From positions 1 through 27,914 of the IMG/VR virus record IMGVR_UViG_3300024503_000143: 27,914 bases of DNA; one strand, given 5' to 3'. This DNA comes from a virus. The translations under genes were made by a program, and so were the position numbers. Shown here piece after piece: positions 5,965 to 15,268 of this stretch; position 1 is the first letter of the stretch; the number at the start of each line of letters is the position of its first letter. The notes under the pieces were generated by a model. It was given only the letters and a program-made list of their open reading frames with translations, searched no databases and was not told the DNA's origin.

Positions 5965-6420
5965 ATGGCCAACACACAAGCAATGTGTACTTCGTTCAAG
6001 AACGAAATTCTTCAGGCGTACCACAACTTTGGCACGACCGTCACCCGCGCTGGCACAGGCGCGGACACCTTCAAAGCAGCGTTGTATTTGACAACTGCCA
6101 CAATTAACGCCAGTACCACAGCCTATACGGCTACTGGTGAAGTGACGGGTACAAACTACAGCGCAGGCGGTGTTACTGTGACCAACGCAACGGCTCCAAC
6201 GACCAGTGGTACAACCGCTTATTGGACTCCCTCCGCAAGTTTGGTGTACACCAACGTGACGCTATCTACTGCGTTTGACACCGTGTTGATCTACAACAGC
6301 ACCCAGTCAAACCGTGCGGTAAGTGTCCACACATTTGGTTCTCAGACAGTGACTGCTGGTACTTTCACGCTGACCATGCCGACTAACGCCGCTGGCACTG
6401 CTCTGTTGAACATCGCCTAA
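5965..6420 (+). CDS. Small structural protein, paralogue B
   Basis: 151 residues from ATG 5965, chosen over an in-frame upstream start because CAAGGAG lies about 7 nt before it. The first 25 residues are helical (SFKNEILQAYHNFG), a possible anchor. From residue 34 on it matches the 5333 gene: DTFKAALYLTTATINASTTA, then TGEVTGTNYSAGG, and a TFTLTMP ending. Repeated Thr/Ser/Asn strands suggest an all-beta virion domain that oligomerises. The different N-terminal part compared with paralogue A suggests the two copies are docked at different sites. Specific function unknown. Confidence 0.7.
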   Translation: MANTQAMCTSFKNEILQAYHNFGTTVTRAGTGADTFKAALYLTTATINASTTAYTATGEVTGTNYSAGGVTVTNATAPTTSGTTAYWTPSASLVYTNVTLSTAFDTVLIYNSTQSNRAVSVHTFGSQTVTAGTFTLTMPTNAAGTALLNIA

Positions 6421-6428
6421 GGTAGCGT

Positions 6429-7406
6429 ATGCCTCTTGTATTTGCTGATCGCGTCCAAGAGACGACAACAACCGCAGGAACCGGCACGGTAACACTTGCC
6501 GGTGCGGTTGCTGGCTTCCAGTCTTTCTCTGCAATTGGTAACGGGAACACCACCTATTACACAATTGTTAACGGAAACAACTGGGAAACTGGGGTTGGCA
6601 CATACACATCCGCTGGTACGACGCTGAGTCGGGATACGGTTTTTGCTTCTTCTAATTCGGGCAACAAGATCACGCTTGCCAACACATCGAATGTGTTTGT
6701 ATCGCCGCCTTCTGCTCGGACTGTTTTGAGGGATGCCTCAAATATTTTGACGCTTCCCGCTGGCACGGCAACTGTTCCTCCTTTGGATTTCACAGCGGGA
6801 ACAAACCTGACCACTCCGATTGCAGGGGCAATGGAGTATGACGGCAGGGTTGCATACTTCACTCCGCAAGGAACACAGCGTGGCGTGATTCCCGGAATGC
6901 AACTGTATCAGTTCAATACCACGTATGCGCTGTCGTCCACAACTACATCCCCGCAGGCATGGGTTAACGGATTAAGTTGTACTTTGTCTTCAAATACGAC
7001 CTATGCGTTTCAAGCGTTTATCCCGTTCATCAGGACTGGAGTTGGCACTGTTACTGTTTCGCACGGGTTTGGCGGAACAGCCACTTTAACCAATATTGGA
7101 TACGTTCTTTATCGTTACTACGATACCGGGGGATTTACTGGCGTAAACAACAACGCATCACTTGCAGGTATAGGTTTTTTTACCTCAGCCGCAAATGGTA
7201 CAACAATGACCGGTTCAACTGCGGGAACCACGTATCAATGGTTGAAAATGGACGGTCAAGTCACGGTTAACGCTGGTGGCACGTTTACCCCTACACTGAC
7301 AAACTCAGCGACTGGTACAACAAATACCATTCAGGTTGGTGCTTATTTTAGGATTTACCCTATTGGCGCGTCTGGTGCAAATATTAATGTTGGAACATGG
7401 GCGTAA
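6429..7406 (+). CDS. Tail fibre protein with a widespread N-terminal module
   Basis: 325 residues from ATG 6429. The N-terminal 95 residues (MPLVFADRVQETTTTAGTG, AGFQSFSAIGNGNTTYYTI, then GTTLSRDTVFASSN) are a module I recall at the start of many environmental phage tail fibres, where it serves as the virion attachment part. A short linker (TVPPLDFTAGTNLTTPIAG) leads to a C-terminal jelly-roll-like region, residues about 150-325, full of aromatic and Thr/Asn strands (TYAFQAFIPFIRTGVGTVTV, IQVGAYFRIYPIGASGANI), probably receptor or glycan binding. It starts the fibre-rich segment that runs to 15.3 kb. Chaperone or cleavage sites are not visible. Confidence 0.75.
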   Translation: MPLVFADRVQETTTTAGTGTVTLAGAVAGFQSFSAIGNGNTTYYTIVNGNNWETGVGTYTSAGTTLSRDTVFASSNSGNKITLANTSNVFVSPPSARTVLRDASNILTLPAGTATVPPLDFTAGTNLTTPIAGAMEYDGRVAYFTPQGTQRGVIPGMQLYQFNTTYALSSTTTSPQAWVNGLSCTLSSNTTYAFQAFIPFIRTGVGTVTVSHGFGGTATLTNIGYVLYRYYDTGGFTGVNNNASLAGIGFFTSAANGTTMTGSTAGTTYQWLKMDGQVTVNAGGTFTPTLTNSATGTTNTIQVGAYFRIYPIGASGANINVGTWA

Positions 7407-7409
7407 ATC

Positions 7410-8597
7410 ATGTTCGGATTTTCAGCGTTCTCTGAAACTGCATTCGGGGCGCTTCCAGCCGCATCTGGCACAAATGTAACTGTAGCAATCAGCGGGGTTT
7501 CTTCTGGCTCCCCTTGGGGTAATAGCACTTGGGGCAGTAATGTCTGGGGTGGAGCGTATGACCCTGTAGGAAGCGTTTCTCCCACGGTTTCAGTTCAACT
7601 GTCTGGTGTTACTGCCACTGGGACTGTTGGTCTTGTTATGCCGCCAATTTCAGGCGTTACCGCAACAGGCTCGGTTGGAACCGTAACGAATGGCGGTATT
7701 ACTGTTGCATTGACAGGCGTTTATGCCACGGGCAGTGTCACTTCTGTTACATTTGGCCCTCCAGTTACCGGAGTTACGGCTACTGGCTCTGTTGGAACGG
7801 TATCTGGTGGCGTATCTCAGTCTTTATCTGGCGTTACCGCAACAGGCTCGGTTGGAACCGTTACAAACGGCGGTATTACCGTTGCTTTGACCGGGGTTTC
7901 TGCCACCGGTTCGGTTGGGATTGTTTACGGGACACAGGAAAGTTCTGGAGCGGGTGTTGTTGCAACTGGATTTGTTGGTTATGTAACGCCAGCGCAATCT
8001 GTCAGTTTGTCGGGTGTAACGGGTACTGGATCAGTCGGGTCTGTATCTGGTAGCGTATCACCATCCCTTTCGGGTGTTACTGGTACAGGTTCTGTTGGGA
8101 ATGTCTCCATAGCCATTTCTGACGCTGTTTCTGGTGTAACAGCCACAGGGTCGGCTGGGACAGTTTCTGGTAATACATCTGTAAGTATCAGTGGTGTTAC
8201 CGCCACTGGCAGTGTTGGGTTTGTCACCTTCAATCCTTCCGTCTCCGGTGTCACGGCAACGGGATCAGTCGGATCGGTTGGTTTTGCCGTAACTGTTGCG
8301 CTTTCCGGGGTCAGTGCTACCGGATCGGTTGGGAATGTTGCCCCATCCAGTTCTTTGGCACTCTCTGGCGTTTCTGCCGCCGGGTCGGTTGGAAATGTTT
8401 CTGTTGGGGCGCGTTTGGTGGCAATTACAGGTTGTACCGCGCTTGGCTCCGTGGGTGATTTAGGGGTCTTCTATTGGAGTCTGATTGATGACAATGAGAA
8501 CGCAAACTGGCAAAATATCAACAGTGCCCAAACCCCGGCGTGGGGGCTTGTTGATGACAACGAAACGGCTGATTGGGAATTGATTCCCACTGAATAG
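7410..8597 (+). CDS. Repeat-containing tail fibre protein (SGVTATGSVG repeats)
   Basis: 395 residues from ATG 7410. After a 55-residue N-terminus (MFGFSAFSETAFGALP, then a Trp-rich patch STWGSNVWGGAYDP) come 15 variants of the unit [ST]GVTATGSVGxV, spaced mostly 18-28 residues apart. The C-terminus has two acidic-aromatic half repeats, LIDDNENANWQNI and LVDDNETADWELI. The repeats predict a long beta-solenoid or triple-stranded fibre shaft. It has almost no Lys or Arg, no cysteine beyond one in the last repeat, and no catalytic motif. Its repeat number can change by unequal recombination, which would alter fibre length. Position between two other fibre genes supports a tail-fibre role. Confidence 0.75.
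   Translation: MFGFSAFSETAFGALPAASGTNVTVAISGVSSGSPWGNSTWGSNVWGGAYDPVGSVSPTVSVQLSGVTATGTVGLVMPPISGVTATGSVGTVTNGGITVALTGVYATGSVTSVTFGPPVTGVTATGSVGTVSGGVSQSLSGVTATGSVGTVTNGGITVALTGVSATGSVGIVYGTQESSGAGVVATGFVGYVTPAQSVSLSGVTGTGSVGSVSGSVSPSLSGVTGTGSVGNVSIAISDAVSGVTATGSAGTVSGNTSVSISGVTATGSVGFVTFNPSVSGVTATGSVGSVGFAVTVALSGVSATGSVGNVAPSSSLALSGVSAAGSVGNVSVGARLVAITGCTALGSVGDLGVFYWSLIDDNENANWQNINSAQTPAWGLVDDNETADWELIPTE
7653..7861 (+). repeat. 32-nt perfect direct repeat inside the fibre repeat gene
   Basis: Bases 7653-7684 and 7830-7861 are identical over 32 nt (from GGCGTTACCGCAACAGG to GGTTGGAACCGT). The offset is 177 nt, exactly 59 codons, and flanking similarity continues (GGCGGTATTAC). Most other repeat units in this gene use different synonymous codons, so this pair looks like a recent in-frame duplication. 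Recombination between the copies would delete or add 59 residues without a frameshift. Confidence 0.85.
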
Positions 8598-8606
8598 GAG
8601 TTTTGA

Positions 8607-9524
8607 ATGGCAACATCTTACACATCACTGCTAGGGCTGGCGCTTCCAGTCACGGGCGAACTATCGGGCACTTGGGGCGATACTGTCAACAACTACATCA
8701 CCCAGTACACTGACGCGTCAATTGCTGGAACTCAAACTATTAGCGGCAGCCAGACTGCGGTTACGCTTTCCGTGACAAATGGCACATCATTGTCTCAGGC
8801 GGGTTCTGGCGCCACAGGTTCTGCGCAGTATCAGGTTATTAACTGCACAGGAAACCCGGCAGGTCTTTTGACCATTACGGCTCCTGCGTCAAGCAAAACA
8901 TACATTGTCATCAATGCTACATCTACCAGCCAGTCTGTGAAGATTGTGGGTACTGGCCCAACGACTGGTGTAACGGTGGCATCTGGTCAACGCGCTTTGG
9001 TGGCGTGGAACGGTTCTGACTTTGTGCAGGTCGGCGCTTCTGCTGGTGGTTCGACCACTCAGGTTCAGTACAACAACGGCGGTGCTTTGGCTGGATCGGC
9101 AAACCTGACGTTCGATGGCACAACGCTGACAGCCAATGCGCTAACGCTAACAAACAAACTGACTATTGCAAACGGCGGAACAAATGCAACTGCAACACCT
9201 ACCGCAGGCGCTGTGGCTTACGGCACGGGTTCGGCCTATGCTTTTACCTCTGCTGGCACATCAGGACAAGCGTTGGTTAGTAACGGAGCATCTGCGCCTT
9301 CGTTTGGTACGCTTGGTGTTGCGGGTGGTGGCACAGGAGCCACAACTTTAACGGCCAACAACGTCATTTTGGGCAACGGTACATCGGCTGTGCAGTTTGT
9401 TGCCCCCGGCACAAACGGTAACGTTCTTGTCTCAAACGGCACAACATGGACAAGTGCCGCCCCCGCCGCATCTGGTGTGTCTCAAGCAAAGGCCACCGCA
9501 ATCGCAATGATCTTTGGAATCTAA
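8607..9524 (+). CDS. Tail fibre protein with glycine-rich beta shaft
   Basis: 305 residues from ATG 8607 with TAGGAG about 8 nt upstream. The N-terminus (SLLGLALPVTGELSGTWGDT, then VNNYITQYTDASIAG) is a widespread attachment module in environmental phage fibres that I recognise from memory. The middle holds a beta domain ending in RALVAWNGSDFVQVG. The distal half has fibre-shaft motifs such as TTQVQYNNGGALAGSANLTF, IANGGTNATATPTAG and GGGTGATTLTANNVILGNG. The last 15 residues (SQAKATAIAMIFGI) form a hydrophobic helix that recurs at this position in the family. No lyase or hydrolase motif is visible. Confidence 0.75.
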   Translation: MATSYTSLLGLALPVTGELSGTWGDTVNNYITQYTDASIAGTQTISGSQTAVTLSVTNGTSLSQAGSGATGSAQYQVINCTGNPAGLLTITAPASSKTYIVINATSTSQSVKIVGTGPTTGVTVASGQRALVAWNGSDFVQVGASAGGSTTQVQYNNGGALAGSANLTFDGTTLTANALTLTNKLTIANGGTNATATPTAGAVAYGTGSAYAFTSAGTSGQALVSNGASAPSFGTLGVAGGGTGATTLTANNVILGNGTSAVQFVAPGTNGNVLVSNGTTWTSAAPAASGVSQAKATAIAMIFGI

Positions 9525-9941: not shown

Positions 9942-11093
9942 ATGTCGATGCGCTATCAGGCGGCAATCATCAAGCCGGGGTTTAACCCCCTCGGTACTCA
10001 ACAAGTTGGGTACTACAACGCATTGTATTCGTGGGGATTAAATGTCAACGGGCAACTTGGCCTTGGTGACACCACTTATCGCTCGTCGCCTGTACAAGTT
10101 GGCACTCTTAGCGATTGGGTTACAGTTGCTACTGGTTACAGGCACACATTATCAATTAAAAGTAATGGTACATTGTGGTCTTGGGGAAGAAATCAAGTTG
10201 GTCAACTTGGTCTTGGAAATATCACGGATTATTCATCTCCAAAACAAATTGGTGCATTAACAAACTGGTTGACTATTGCGGCTAGTAATTACAGCACAAT
10301 AGCAATTAAAACCGATGGTACTCTTTGGACATGGGGACAAAATAATTATGGACAACTTGGTTTGGGAACAAGTGGAACTAATTATTCAAGCCCAAGACAA
10401 GTCGGTGCGTTAACAAATTGGTCGCAAGTTTCTTGTGGTAGTACTTGGGCAATAGCAATTAAAACCGATGGCACTCTTTGGTCTTGGGGGCAAAACAATC
10501 TTGGACAACTTGGCCTTGGCAACCTAACAAATTACTCATCACCAAAACAAGTTGGCTCTTTAACAAATTGGTCGCAAGTTTCTTGTGGTAATTTTTGGAC
10601 AATTGCATTAAAGAATGACGGAACGCTTTGGTCTTGGGGTCAAAATAATACTGGGCAACTTGGTCAAAACAATTTAACTTATTTGTCATCACCAAAACAA
10701 GTTGGCGCTTTGACAACATGGTCAAAACTTTCTACTGGCGCAAATCATGCGGCTGTAATTACAACTAGCGGCGCTCTTTGGGCATGGGGCTACAATTATT
10801 ATGGTCAACTTGGTTTAGGTACCAGCGGTAGTTACACGGATTACTCATCACCAAAACAAGTTGGCTCTTTAACAACTTGGGCACAAATTTCTTGCGGCCT
10901 GAATTTTACGACTGCACTTAGTACCAACGGTAAATTGTGGGTTATGGGCCAAAATGCTTTTGGGCAATTGGGTCTTGGTGATTCTGGAGGATTGGCGTTT
11001 TCCAGATCAAGCCCAACTCAAGTTGGTAGCCTAACGACATGGTCGCTTCTTGCAAAAATATCAAGATCGTCTTTTACTCTAGCAATGATTTAA
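9942..11093 (+). CDS. RCC1 seven-repeat beta-propeller protein 1 (receptor-binding candidate)
   Basis: 383 residues from ATG 9942, with AGGAGA about 7 nt upstream. After a 30-residue N-terminus (MSMRYQAAIIKPGFNPLG) come seven RCC1-type repeats, each with a core like LWSWGxNxxGQLGLG followed by YSSPKQVGxLTNW and an AIKTDGTLW strand. Seven repeats equal the blade number of a canonical RCC1 propeller. Eukaryotic RCC1 is a Ran exchange factor, but in phages such propellers are most simply receptor-binding heads. DNA here is AT-rich (21 of 60 G/C in 10201-10260) compared with capsid-side genes, suggesting separate origin. It is the first of three RCC1 genes in the window. Binding specificity is unknown. 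Confidence 0.8.
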   Translation: MSMRYQAAIIKPGFNPLGTQQVGYYNALYSWGLNVNGQLGLGDTTYRSSPVQVGTLSDWVTVATGYRHTLSIKSNGTLWSWGRNQVGQLGLGNITDYSSPKQIGALTNWLTIAASNYSTIAIKTDGTLWTWGQNNYGQLGLGTSGTNYSSPRQVGALTNWSQVSCGSTWAIAIKTDGTLWSWGQNNLGQLGLGNLTNYSSPKQVGSLTNWSQVSCGNFWTIALKNDGTLWSWGQNNTGQLGQNNLTYLSSPKQVGALTTWSKLSTGANHAAVITTSGALWAWGYNYYGQLGLGTSGSYTDYSSPKQVGSLTTWAQISCGLNFTTALSTNGKLWVMGQNAFGQLGLGDSGGLAFSRSSPTQVGSLTTWSLLAKISRSSFTLAMI

Positions 11094-11102
11094 GGAACGA
11101 CC

Positions 11103-12266
11103 ATGCCATACATAAACTCAGGCGTTCAATACTCAGGACTGTGGACTCGTGCCCAACAGATGCAGGCTGTTGCGGCTGGCACTTGGACTTTTGCTCCAAC
11201 GCCTTTATATTCTTGGGGTCAAAATGATCTTGGGCAACTTGGTCTTGGCAACGTCACAAATTACTCATCTCCAAAACAAATTAGTGCAACGGATTCTTGG
11301 TTGCAAATTTCTGGGGGCTATAAATTTTTTACTGGAGTTAAAGTAAATGGAACTCTGTGGACTTGGGGATGGAACAATTTTGGTCAACTTGGTTTAGGAA
11401 ACACAACAAATTATTCTTCAGCCAAACAGGTCGGGTCATTGACAAATTGGCAGTCTGTTTCAAATGGCTCGTATCATGTTCTTGCAGTTAAAACAGATGG
11501 AACATTGTGGTCGTGGGGTTACAACCCATCAGGAGCGTTAGGTCTTGGAAACACCACCAATTATTCATCTCCTAAACAAATTGGGTCGGGCACAAATTGG
11601 GTAACAGTTGCCGCCGCTGGTGTTTTTAATAGTTACGCAATTAAAACTGATGGAACTCTTTGGGCTTGGGGTAGAAACACTGAAGGCGAACTTGGCCTTG
11701 GCAACACAACTGATTATTCATCTCCCAAGCAAGTTGGGGCATTAACAAACTGGTCAAAAATTTCTGGTTTTTATTATGGTGTTTTGGCTATAAAAACTAA
11801 TGGAACACTTTGGGCATGGGGGAAAAATAATTACGGACAACTTGGTCTTGGAAACACAACATATTATTCTTCGCCAAAACAAGTTGGGGCTTTGACAAAT
11901 TGGTCTGGATTAGCCACTTCTATGGCTGTCGCAGTTGCCGTAGGAGCCTCAAAAACAGACGGTACTTTGTGGATGTGGGGAGACAATAGTTATGGACAGG
12001 CTGGCCAAGGAACATCAGGTACGACATTTTCATCGCCTAAACAAGTTGGTTCGTTGACCAATTGGACAAGTCAAATCTCAATTGGCCAATTGACTGTTAA
12101 CGCTGTTAAATCAGATGGCACTTGGTGGAGTTGGGGCGGTGGTCTTTATGGCACATTAGGTCGTGGAAATACAACAAGTTATTCTTCTCCAAAACAACTC
12201 GGTGCATTGACCACATGGATCAAAGTTGCGGCTGGCGCATATTCCACATACGGTCTTACATCATAA
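11103..12266 (+). CDS. RCC1 seven-repeat beta-propeller protein 2 (receptor-binding candidate)
   Basis: 387 residues from ATG 11103, 10 nt after RCC1 protein 1 and preceded by AAGGA. The N-terminal 33 residues (INSGVQYSGLWTRAQQMQAV, then AAGTWTF) form an anchor of the GLWTxxQQxxAxxAGTW type that I recall from other phage fibre proteins. Seven RCC1 repeats follow, for example TWGWNNFGQLGLG, SWGYNPSGALGLG and AWGKNNYGQLGLG. The sixth and seventh are more divergent (MWGDNSYGQAGQG, SWGGGLYGTLGRG). The gene is as AT-rich as the first. It differs from protein 1 chiefly at loop residues and at the anchor. It ends 9 nt before the sulfotransferase fusion gene. Confidence 0.8.
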   Translation: MPYINSGVQYSGLWTRAQQMQAVAAGTWTFAPTPLYSWGQNDLGQLGLGNVTNYSSPKQISATDSWLQISGGYKFFTGVKVNGTLWTWGWNNFGQLGLGNTTNYSSAKQVGSLTNWQSVSNGSYHVLAVKTDGTLWSWGYNPSGALGLGNTTNYSSPKQIGSGTNWVTVAAAGVFNSYAIKTDGTLWAWGRNTEGELGLGNTTDYSSPKQVGALTNWSKISGFYYGVLAIKTNGTLWAWGKNNYGQLGLGNTTYYSSPKQVGALTNWSGLATSMAVAVAVGASKTDGTLWMWGDNSYGQAGQGTSGTTFSSPKQVGSLTNWTSQISIGQLTVNAVKSDGTWWSWGGGLYGTLGRGNTTSYSSPKQLGALTTWIKVAAGAYSTYGLTS

Positions 12267-12275
12267 GGAAAACAA

Positions 12276-14048
12276 TTGAAAAAACAACTGCACTTCCTCT
12301 CTGGCATCCCCCGTTCTGGCTCGACAGTCCTTGCGGCTATTCTGAACCAGAACCCCATGACCCATGTCTCGACCACATCTGGTCTTGTTCATGCGCTTGA
12401 TGGCTTGGCAAACACTTGGCACTCCCAAGGCTTGCTCAATGAGAATGACCCAGAGCGAAAGAAGTTGGCGCAGACCATGCGAGGCATGATTGATGCCTTC
12501 TATGAGGACACCGACAAGCCTGTGGTGATTGACAAGGGTCGTGGATGGCCTATCCCCGTCATCATGGGTGCTATGACTCAGGTGTTGGGTCACAAGCCCA
12601 AGATCATCGCCACAGTGCGTTCTGTGCCTGATTGCATGGCATCCTTTGTTCGTGTTGCCAAACCCGCAGACCTGGACGAATTCATAGCGACAGGTCAGTT
12701 GGCTGACCACCTGAAAGCCGCATACATCAGTTTGCAATCTGGGTATGAGTACGACAAAGACTGCTTCTTGATGGTGGAATACGAAGAACTGTTGGCTGAC
12801 CCCAAGAAGCAACTTGACCGCATCCATGAGTTCCTTGGGCTTCCCGCCTTTGACTACGACCTGTCCAACATTGACGGATCATCTGTTAAAGAAGACGATG
12901 AGAACCTGCACGGATACGCTGGGATGCACGACATTAAACCTGTCTTGGCAAAACAGCACAACCAGTCAGCCAAAGATTCGTTAAAGCACCATTATTCGGC
13001 CTTCTGCCAGCCTGAGTTTTGGCTGGAAAAGCCTCGCACAGTCCCTGAAATCCACGACCTTGATTTGCAACTTGCTGCATCAACGATGGGTGATTTTGCT
13101 GAAGGATGGAGATTGGCGCAGAAACTGGAACGTGAAGAGCCAAACAACCATCGTGCGGCATACAACCGAGGCTGGTATCTTTTGCGTCAAGGGCAGATTC
13201 AAAAAGGCTACCAGTTGATGGATCGGGGTCGAATCTCAGGTGTGTTTGGCAATAGCAGACCTGATGCCCCGACTGGCCCGTGGGATGGCAAGACCAAAGG
13301 CACAGTGATGCTGTACCTCGAAGGCGGTTTGGGCGATCAAATCCACCAAATCCGTTATGCCAAATACATTGCCGAGCGTGGGTGCAAAGTGGTTGTTTCT
13401 TGCACTGGCCCTCTGGCAAGTCTCTTCACCGATGTCGAGGGCGTGTCGGCGGTTGTCCAGCACGAAGCCACATTTGGCATCTACCACGACTTCTGGGTGC
13501 AGGGTATGTCAGCCGTTGTGCCGCTTGGCTTTGAACTGAAAGACCTGTCGGGTAAACCCTACCTGACGAAGCCGACCACGATTAAAGGTCGCAAGAAGCG
13601 GATTGGTTTGCGCTGGCAGGGCAACAGCAAGTTTGAGCATGAGCATCACAAGAAGTTCCCCTACGAATTGATGTTTGAGGCGGTCAAAGATGCTGACGCA
13701 GAATTCATCAGCCTACAGCGTGATGAGGGCGTAGATGCTTGTCCTCCCTGGGTCAAACAAGTACCATTGGACAGTTGGGAAGACACCCGCATGGCGGCGG
13801 CTTCCTGTGATCTGGTAATCAGTTCTTGCACCTCTGTGAGCCATTTGGCGGCGGCTATGGGGGTGGAAACTTGGGTGGTGACTCCTGTGATGCCTTACTT
13901 CTTGTATGCTTTGGATGGGGAGAAGACCCCGTACTACGACAGCATGGTGCTGTTGCGTCAGGAAGTTTTTGGCGATTGGACGCACCCGTTTGCCAAGATC
14001 AAAGAACGATTGACAGCCGAGAAAGCCGCTTTGCGGAGAGTTGTATGA
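12276..14048 (+). CDS. Bifunctional sulfotransferase - TPR/glycosyltransferase-like fusion
   Basis: 590 residues from a TTG start at 12276, supported by AAGGAA at 12265-12270. Residues 1-250 are a PAPS-dependent sulfotransferase: a 5'-phosphosulfate loop PRSGST (12-17) and a 3'-phosphate site with R115 and S123 at the canonical eight-residue spacing (VRSVPDCMAS). Residues about 270-320 look like a TPR helix pair. Residues about 340-580 resemble TPR-linked GT9/heptosyltransferase-type glycosyltransferases, with EGGLGDQIHQIRYA, IGLRWQGN and SSCTSVSHLAAAMG. It is cytosolic, with no signal peptide. Its substrate is unknown; a surface glycan or the neighbouring fibres are the candidates. Base composition (34 of 60 G/C at 12541-12600) differs from the AT-rich RCC1 genes on both sides. 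An APS kinase 2.2 kb downstream could supply PAPS. Confidence 0.8.
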   Translation: MKKQLHFLSGIPRSGSTVLAAILNQNPMTHVSTTSGLVHALDGLANTWHSQGLLNENDPERKKLAQTMRGMIDAFYEDTDKPVVIDKGRGWPIPVIMGAMTQVLGHKPKIIATVRSVPDCMASFVRVAKPADLDEFIATGQLADHLKAAYISLQSGYEYDKDCFLMVEYEELLADPKKQLDRIHEFLGLPAFDYDLSNIDGSSVKEDDENLHGYAGMHDIKPVLAKQHNQSAKDSLKHHYSAFCQPEFWLEKPRTVPEIHDLDLQLAASTMGDFAEGWRLAQKLEREEPNNHRAAYNRGWYLLRQGQIQKGYQLMDRGRISGVFGNSRPDAPTGPWDGKTKGTVMLYLEGGLGDQIHQIRYAKYIAERGCKVVVSCTGPLASLFTDVEGVSAVVQHEATFGIYHDFWVQGMSAVVPLGFELKDLSGKPYLTKPTTIKGRKKRIGLRWQGNSKFEHEHHKKFPYELMFEAVKDADAEFISLQRDEGVDACPPWVKQVPLDSWEDTRMAAASCDLVISSCTSVSHLAAAMGVETWVVTPVMPYFLYALDGEKTPYYDSMVLLRQEVFGDWTHPFAKIKERLTAEKAALRRVV

Positions 14049-15268
14049 GCCACACACTGTATCCCGGTTCCATCATTTCCAAGACTGCCCCGACAGTCAC
14101 CCCGCCTGTTGATGGTGAAGGTGGCTCTGCGTCTGGTATTTGGACAATAGATCAGGCCGATTACTATATTTCTCAAGGTACTTGGCCTAAACCTGTGACA
14201 CCTAGAGGTTTATGGGCATTTGGTTCTGGTCTTATTGGCGGGTTAGGTCTTAGCAATAGTTATAGTTACTCATCGCCTGTTCAGGTTGGATCTCTTACAA
14301 CTTGGAATACTATGGCTGGGGCTGAATACGCAGGTTTAGCAATCAAAAACGACGGAACTCTTTGGTCTTGGGGGTACAATGCCTTTGGAGTATTAGGTCT
14401 TAACAACACAACAAATTATTCTTCGCCAAAACAAGTTGGTGCGTTAACTAATTGGAAAAGTGTTGTTTCTGGAAATAGGTCTGTTAAAGCGATTAAGACT
14501 GATGGAACAACATGGGCATGGGGGTCAAACCAATTTGGAAACCTCGGTTTAGGGGACACAACTAACAGATCGTCACCGACTCAAGTTGGAATTTTGACTA
14601 ATTGGGCGCAAATTGCGGGTGGCAGTGTTATTACTGGAGCAATTAAAACTGATGGTACTTTGTGGATGTGGGGATTAAACGCAGAAGGTCAGTTGGGTCT
14701 TGGAAACACAATTTACTATTCATCGCCTAAACAAGTTGGATCGCTTACAAACTGGTCAAAAATTCAAGTGGGCGATAACTGTGGTATTGCGTTAAAAACT
14801 GACGGCACTCTTTGGTCTTGGGGAGGCAATTCTTTTGGTCAGTTAGGTTTGGGCGACACTGTAAATCGATCATCGCCAACTCAAATTGGCTCCGGTACTA
14901 ACTGGGCACAAATATGCGTTGGAAATTCATCGCCCGTGTGTTTTGCATTAAAAACAGATGGAACACTTTGGGCGTGGGGTTATAACCAAACCTATGGCGC
15001 TCTTGGTTTAAACGACACAGTAAATCGCTCATCCCCAACTCAAGTCGGCGCATTAACAAATTGGTCAAAGTTTCCAACTTCGGCTTATAAACCGGGGTTG
15101 TTAATGATTAAATCCGACGGAACTCTTTGGGGGTGGGGGTTAAATACTGATGGCCAAGTTGGGATTGGAAATACCATAAATCGATCTAGTCCTGCCCAAA
15201 TCGGTTCCCTTACAAGTTGGCAAAAATGCGCTCTGTCCTACAGAAACAGTTTTGCGCTTCGTTCATAA
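14045..15268 (+). CDS. RCC1 seven-repeat beta-propeller protein 3 (receptor-binding candidate)
   Basis: 407 residues from ATG 14045, an ATGA overlap with the sulfotransferase stop; an upstream in-frame start at 13826 would lie inside that gene and is rejected. The 50-residue N-terminus has a proline-rich linker (KTAPTVTPPVDGEGGSASG) and an anchor IWTIDQADYYISQGTWP that parallels that of RCC1 protein 2. Seven RCC1 repeats follow, starting with a degenerate one (AFGSGLIGGLGLS) and including SWGGNSFGQLGLG and GWGLNTDGQVGIG. The DNA is AT-rich (20 of 60 G/C in 14401-14460). Translational coupling ties it to the modification enzyme, hinting at a functional link. Confidence 0.8.
   Translation: MSHTLYPGSIISKTAPTVTPPVDGEGGSASGIWTIDQADYYISQGTWPKPVTPRGLWAFGSGLIGGLGLSNSYSYSSPVQVGSLTTWNTMAGAEYAGLAIKNDGTLWSWGYNAFGVLGLNNTTNYSSPKQVGALTNWKSVVSGNRSVKAIKTDGTTWAWGSNQFGNLGLGDTTNRSSPTQVGILTNWAQIAGGSVITGAIKTDGTLWMWGLNAEGQLGLGNTIYYSSPKQVGSLTNWSKIQVGDNCGIALKTDGTLWSWGGNSFGQLGLGDTVNRSSPTQIGSGTNWAQICVGNSSPVCFALKTDGTLWAWGYNQTYGALGLNDTVNRSSPTQVGALTNWSKFPTSAYKPGLLMIKSDGTLWGWGLNTDGQVGIGNTINRSSPAQIGSLTSWQKCALSYRNSFALRS

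Follow-up and report, generated by a model that had tools for sequence, protein, structure and literature searches.

Tail fibres with repetitive shafts are a recognised kind of phage protein, and a gene at positions 7410-8597 of the viral record IMGVR_UViG_3300024503_000143 (positions 1 to 27,914, the whole 27,914-nucleotide stretch analysed, hereafter the window) shares with them its genomic position and a repetitive beta sequence. Among described phage repeat proteins, the BACON proteins of crAss-like and other gut phages carry tandem repeats that are reported to have arisen by horizontal transfer of domains in two lineages and by duplication in a third (PMC6949934). Those proteins resemble the window protein in their tandem repeats and their association with phage tails, whereas the window family has 20-residue units and comes from aquatic phages; Pfam scans of the window protein and 29 members of its family returned no BACON family. 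Another described counterpart is encoded by Phage DSL-LC04 (OR003939.1), which is reported from the Dishui Lake metagenome (PMC10611076). Its hypothetical protein WJZ48131.1 contains the same kind of repeat and the same Trp tail as the window protein and likewise follows an adaptor gene and two small genes; however, it is 31.6% identical over 39% of the window protein and bears a Trp-Gly cap instead of an MFG cap.

The window gene is an open frame on the plus strand encoding 395 aa, with relatives recovered by database scans. Alignments place its N-terminal cap in the first 37 or so codons (7410-7520, plus strand), which read MFGISAFAEAPFASLAG in relatives and about whose end many upstream DNA homology blocks stop. 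A Trp-Gly segment, GSPWGNSTWGSNVWGG (7506-7553, plus strand), resembles the second cap type of relatives. The array (7605-8456, plus strand) comprises 15 cores of the form G-V-x-A-x-G-x-V-G, starting at residues 66 to 341 and spaced 16, 18, 20 or 21 residues apart, within degenerate units of about 20 residues. Finally, the C-terminal tail (8475-8594, plus strand) consists of four 11-residue Trp units (W356, W367, W378 and W389) and is homologous to that of a second repeat type discussed below. An initial sequence-only reading of this DNA had described 15 SGVTATGSVG repeats; the number of units holds, but the exact decamer occurs in four of them and the rest are variants. Its statement that the repeats have diverged at synonymous sites agrees with the count of identical codons, 345 of 1062 over all unit pairs and 11 of 15 for units 2 and 5.

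Scanning with the window protein yielded 4 loci, and an alignment-based scan 326 confirmed relatives, of which the best 80 were taken; two other scans confirmed at least 487 and at least 598 relatives, with the best 80 again taken from each. By its sequence, the window gene is thus placed in a large IMG/VR phage family. In a typical member, an N-terminal cap (MFGISAFAEAPFASLAG or Trp-Gly-rich) precedes the repeats, and the C-terminal tail that follows them has the pattern W-x-x-I-D-D-x-x-x-A-N-W-Q-N. Unit spacing across the family is 20 residues in 893 of 1311 cases, 21 in 220, 22 in 108 and 18 in 52; a spacing of 19 occurs twice and 17 never. The proposed variability in length is strong between phages: the 159 complete genes, left from 181 loci after removal of 17 (same-contig duplicates judged by hand from listings, together with named or bacterial records) and of 5 incomplete genes, contain 7 to 56 units, with a median of 14, and the count is accordingly not uniform among related phages. 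In a phage collection, the window protein matches Phage DSL-LC04 only; with a relative as query, a Manatee Spring contig is matched as well. A scan of bacterial genomes found a single contig, in an Armatimonadetes bin, and no host is therefore inferred from it.

The gene lies in a block of tail or fibre genes. In a survey of 82 loci, a phrog_644-like gene is found no more than 150 nt upstream of the repeat gene at 79 of 82 loci, an adaptor gene farther upstream at 80, and a VFADRV gene no more than 150 nt downstream at 74. In the window, the phrog_644-like gene that usually precedes the repeat gene in relatives, recognised by a PHROG match and the neighbourhood survey, occupies 5965-6417, and the VFADRV gene, which starts MPLVFADRVQETTT, occupies 6429-7406 and matches at 6447-6650 the DNA of a gene annotated as tail fiber (both plus strand). 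An open frame beginning MATSYTSLLGLALP (8607-9524, plus strand) was identified in the same survey as the downstream neighbour of the repeat gene. The gene order of the window differs in that the VFADRV gene is upstream of the repeat gene, as in three of the 82 loci.

With no match between the window protein and any family of known function, the label "fibre" rests on these neighbours and on the repetitiveness of the sequence. Neither Pfam nor PHROGs contained a family matching it, and among the 29 members scanned one gave a marginal Pfam match and two a marginal PHROG match. Likewise, searches of Pfam, PHROGs and PDB profiles found no sequence match between the window protein and a characterised fibre, with distant homology a possibility. 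The product could, then, be a structural protein of the virion interior or the head, or else act as a secreted effector, and sit among tail genes by chance; the silence of Pfam and PHROGs as to function, and the indirect grounds for placing the repeat protein at the virion surface, leave room for this. Its usual place after the phrog_644-like gene and before fibre-like genes, together with its repetitive beta sequence, makes such an identity unlikely. The best reading, which we hold to be somewhat better than an even bet, is a modular, fibre-like virion appendage, for which we infer the virion location, the fold, the role in host contact and the frequency of each route of change. The short N-terminal cap would serve for attachment, the elongated array of 20-residue beta units would form the shaft, and the tail of 11-residue Trp units would provide a tip or an assembly element. 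Modular repetitive phage appendages are a known kind, to which the product would belong by virtue of this putative role.

Structure prediction offered limited guidance on the fold. AlphaFold2 placed about two short strands in each unit, in weak models whose mean pLDDT was 58 (window protein) and 42 (a relative). A Foldseek search of the PDB with the pLDDT 58 model gave no significant match (best E 0.32), and VIA-align against PDB chains ranked EtpA and HMW1 first for this same weak model (Z 15-17, rmsd 3.5-4.1). EtpA and HMW1 are two-partner secretion adhesins with a right-handed beta-helix fold. They provide the best structural alignments of the window model, with Z 17.1 over 320 residues and 15.0 over 246, but at 7% and 5% identity and a model pLDDT of 58 these fall short of demonstrating common ancestry. 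YdcK (Z 10-12, rmsd 10) and GlmU and LpxA (Z no higher than 9.3, rmsd near 10) ranked lower; none of the PDB chains listed by VIA-align is a phage fibre, which excludes nothing. Three BFVD matches at E no greater than 0.001, with TM-scores of 0.18-0.30, were to two uncharacterised proteins of uncultured Caudovirales phages and to one protein without a name, and a PDB profile search gave a single weak match, to IgA1 protease (E 2e-4), which, like the Foldseek matches in the PDB, was set aside. A repeat of about 20 residues, as in right-handed beta-helices of the EtpA/HMW1 kind, is the commonest spacing in the family, and the set of spacings observed (16, 18, 20, 21 and 22, with 17 missing and 19 almost so) would fit a beta architecture. 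A right-handed beta-solenoid with one unit per turn may be the guess most consistent with these models, and it is offered as a guess, not a result.

The sequence-only reading had singled out a 32-nt exact direct repeat within the array, and this is confirmed at 7653-7684 and 7830-7861, offset by 177 nt. It is the sole exact repeat of at least 16 nt at offsets of at least 20 nt within the gene, and it lies beyond chance: when codons were permuted between positions of the same amino acid, the longest exact repeat had a mean length of 14.0 nt and a maximum of 27, and none of 1000 shuffles reached 32 nt. Self-comparison shows the two copies to lie within a longer patch of 83 nt, about 28 codons, at 7650-7732 and 7827-7909 (plus strand), over which they match at 88%. 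The match decays along the patch from 29 of 30 positions to 25 and then 21; the next three 30-nt blocks at the 177-nt offset match at 8, 11 and 13 positions, and all blocks compared outside the patch lie between 5 and 14. The repeat had been read as the trace of a 59-codon duplication; a tandem duplication of that size is rejected because the copies match over 83 nt only; the 59 codons are the offset between the copies, not the length of a copied segment. A recent 59-codon in-frame expansion in the window is likewise not supported, the match being lost beyond the patch, and since there is no such duplication and the similarity is confined to a decaying patch, the word "recent" is itself doubtful. 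The patch may instead be a short stretch copied within the gene and shared by units 2-3 and 5-6, left by an old duplication or by gene conversion. Relative L063 contains a small intragenic copy as well, 51 nt long, exact and offset by 82 codons.

A second, near-identical contig (L002; IMG/VR 3300024505) carries an identical repeat gene with the same 15 units. An assembly error is unlikely as the origin of these units, because L002 agrees with the window base for base over the gene and differs in the preceding one; from that difference, the two contigs appear to be separate assemblies. The 3' end of the preceding gene (7196-7386) differs between window and L002, with an in-frame 3-nt indel, directly beside an identical repeat gene.

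Two easily confused ideas must be set apart here: length that varies between phages and length that switches within a phage population. On the evidence assembled, the repeat family is a case of the former. When pairs from the 159 complete genes were grouped by the identity of their upstream DNA, a length difference of at least 15 aa was seen in none of 35 pairs at 99% identity or above and in 1 of 13 at 95-99%, then in 6 of 16 (90-95%), 41 of 80 (85-90%), 181 of 267 (80-85%), 873 of 972 (75-80%) and, in the lowest band, 1736 of 2011. Thus, 47 of the 48 pairs at 95% or above differ by less than 15 aa, and length does not vary within 22 of the 23 clusters formed at 95%. A first, smaller set of 82 genes (L006 was left out, and L010 and L036, on the same contigs as L002 and L004, never entered) behaved in the same way, with no such difference in 35 pairs at or above 95% upstream identity and with none of its 16 clusters varying by more than one residue. 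The single departure in the larger set, the pair L043/L194, shows 95.7% identity as far as nt 111 of the gene and is then unlike up to the stop codon; the body after the cap is a different sequence, not the same one lengthened or shortened by a unit. Unit number is therefore stable within close pairs as far as the assemblies show, assemblies representing the majority form and possibly hiding minority variants.

These data bear on the proposal that repeat number is tuned by a phase-variation-like route, in which units would be gained or lost quickly, by slippage or by recombination between identical copies, so that fibre length changes within a population. Recombination between the two 32-nt copies could occur in frame (177 nt being 59 codons), the range of lengths in the family is wide, and among the close relatives L219, L222, L223 and L231 the tail varies by two tandem 11-residue Trp units. 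However, a tandem-repeat search reported no tandem array in the window gene, 345 of 1062 synonymous codons are common to its units, and the near-identical tandem repeats expected of a phase-variable locus are lacking. Among the close pairs, the only one of 48 to differ by 15 aa or more does so by an unlike body, and L002 has the same 15 units. Stable length in 47 of the 48 close pairs and the identity of the L002 gene are therefore evidence against tuning of this kind, which we regard as highly improbable. To judge by the contigs, phages differ from one another in length but near-identical ones do not. That array length is a property of the lineage, not toggled within a strain, forms part of the modular-appendage reading as a whole, with the modest preference stated for it above.

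How the array changes over longer distances can be approached through the 445 pairs in which upstream homology enters the gene. The homology runs through in 129 pairs and stops inside in 316, and length changed in 3 of the former versus 266 of the latter; the contrast is in part built in, since any large insertion or deletion will by itself break off an alignment block. All three length-changed run-through pairs reflect two extra Trp units in L231, the only change of at least 15 aa seen with homology through the gene. Relative to L219, L222 and L223, this amounts to a tail difference of 22 aa. Stops cluster about the end of the cap, with 181 of the 316 interrupted pairs ending at nt 75-119. 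Longer-term remodelling of the array would accordingly be of two kinds, exchange of the body behind a conserved cap and changes in the number of units.

The same pattern might also arise by ordinary divergence, through point changes and slow gain or loss of units, with blocks ending at the cap because the cap is conserved and with exchange being rare. Block identity is 80-90% in 311 of the 316 interrupted pairs, a range in which the stop at the cap may simply be the end of a conserved segment, and ten orthologues of exactly 341 aa can be compared residue for residue, at 71-97% identity in 24 of their 45 pairs. Furthermore, in a recount with chained blocks and other alignment settings, covering 245 pairs, 27 of the 107 length-differing pairs keep at least 85% of the shorter gene collinear, a generous figure since the chain double-counts overlaps in some pairs; the share is 60-85% in 30 pairs and below 60% in 50. 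Collinear genes that have gained or lost units include L173/L224 and L172/L180, and slow in-frame gain or loss between distant relatives is real in the family. On the other side, L043/L194 and L042/L199, at 95.7% and 93.4% identity, lose all collinear similarity from one shared base, nt 111, until about the stop codon, and the slot can also be occupied by a dissimilar repeat type whose tail is homologous. Only 5 of the 316 interrupted pairs have blocks at 90% identity or above, and 4 of these stop at nt 111, all in one group of four loci. In the recount, all 44 pairs at 95% block identity or above keep their length, and at 90-95% 3 of 12 differ, all of them less than 60% collinear and from one four-locus group. 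These alignments make exchange of the gene body plain in one group and probable in others, and divergence as the whole account is possible but distinctly less probable than the modular appendage.

The second repeat type was met among 80 loci retrieved for the window's adaptor gene, 35 of which extend 4.5 kb past it. The G-V-x-A-x-G-x-V-G type is present in 15 of these 35, and some other adaptor loci combine similar caps and tail with a different unit, V-S-E-T-A-T-G-x-D. A scan for the latter confirmed 453 relatives, of which the best 80 were taken; 78 loci were examined and 75 had a complete gene, the survey omitting the 3 without one and L241 (same contig as L166). Among these complete genes, unit spacing is 20 residues in 663 of 693 cases, with a phrog_644-like gene upstream in 69 and an LGLALP gene downstream in 72. 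None of its 75 complete genes encodes a G-type core, and by motif none of 145 distinct proteins, nor any of the 75 in the second-type set, contains both repeat types. When profiles of the two types were compared, the tail region alone aligned (probability 98.6, 62 columns), and its Trp residues are spaced by 11 in all 480 cases in the first type and all 187 in the second.

The same genomic slot can thus hold a second, dissimilar 20-residue repeat type with a homologous Trp tail. This suggests, tentatively, an appendage with standard ends and exchangeable middles, in which two dissimilar repeat chemistries of 20-residue pitch would act as alternative shafts for one homologous 11-residue-Trp tip in aquatic phages; the fixed pitch would let recombination swap the surface and length of the shaft with the fold intact, altering host contact. 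We consider this proposal possible, though rather doubtful. If true, it is the fixed pitch of the repeats that makes recombination of long fibre-like proteins possible, and a large family of "hypothetical proteins" becomes recognisable by its cap and Trp tail and testable for host contact. The tails themselves contain 2, 3, 4 or 6 Trp units in 11, 29, 99 and 35 cases, respectively (118 and 56 distinct tails of the two types, related and hence not independent), with 5 or more than 6 never seen.

Elsewhere in the window, three RCC1-repeat genes lie close together at 9942-11093, 11103-12266 and about 14042-15268; Pfam assigns RCC1 to two of them, and PHROG "regulator of chromosome condensation" to all three. 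A 590-aa open frame (12276-14048) separates the RCC1 genes. A small gene at 1815-2144 (MPSVSKKQHNFM) is 75.8% identical in DNA to phiKZ over 95 nt, with similar matches to other Pseudomonas phages.
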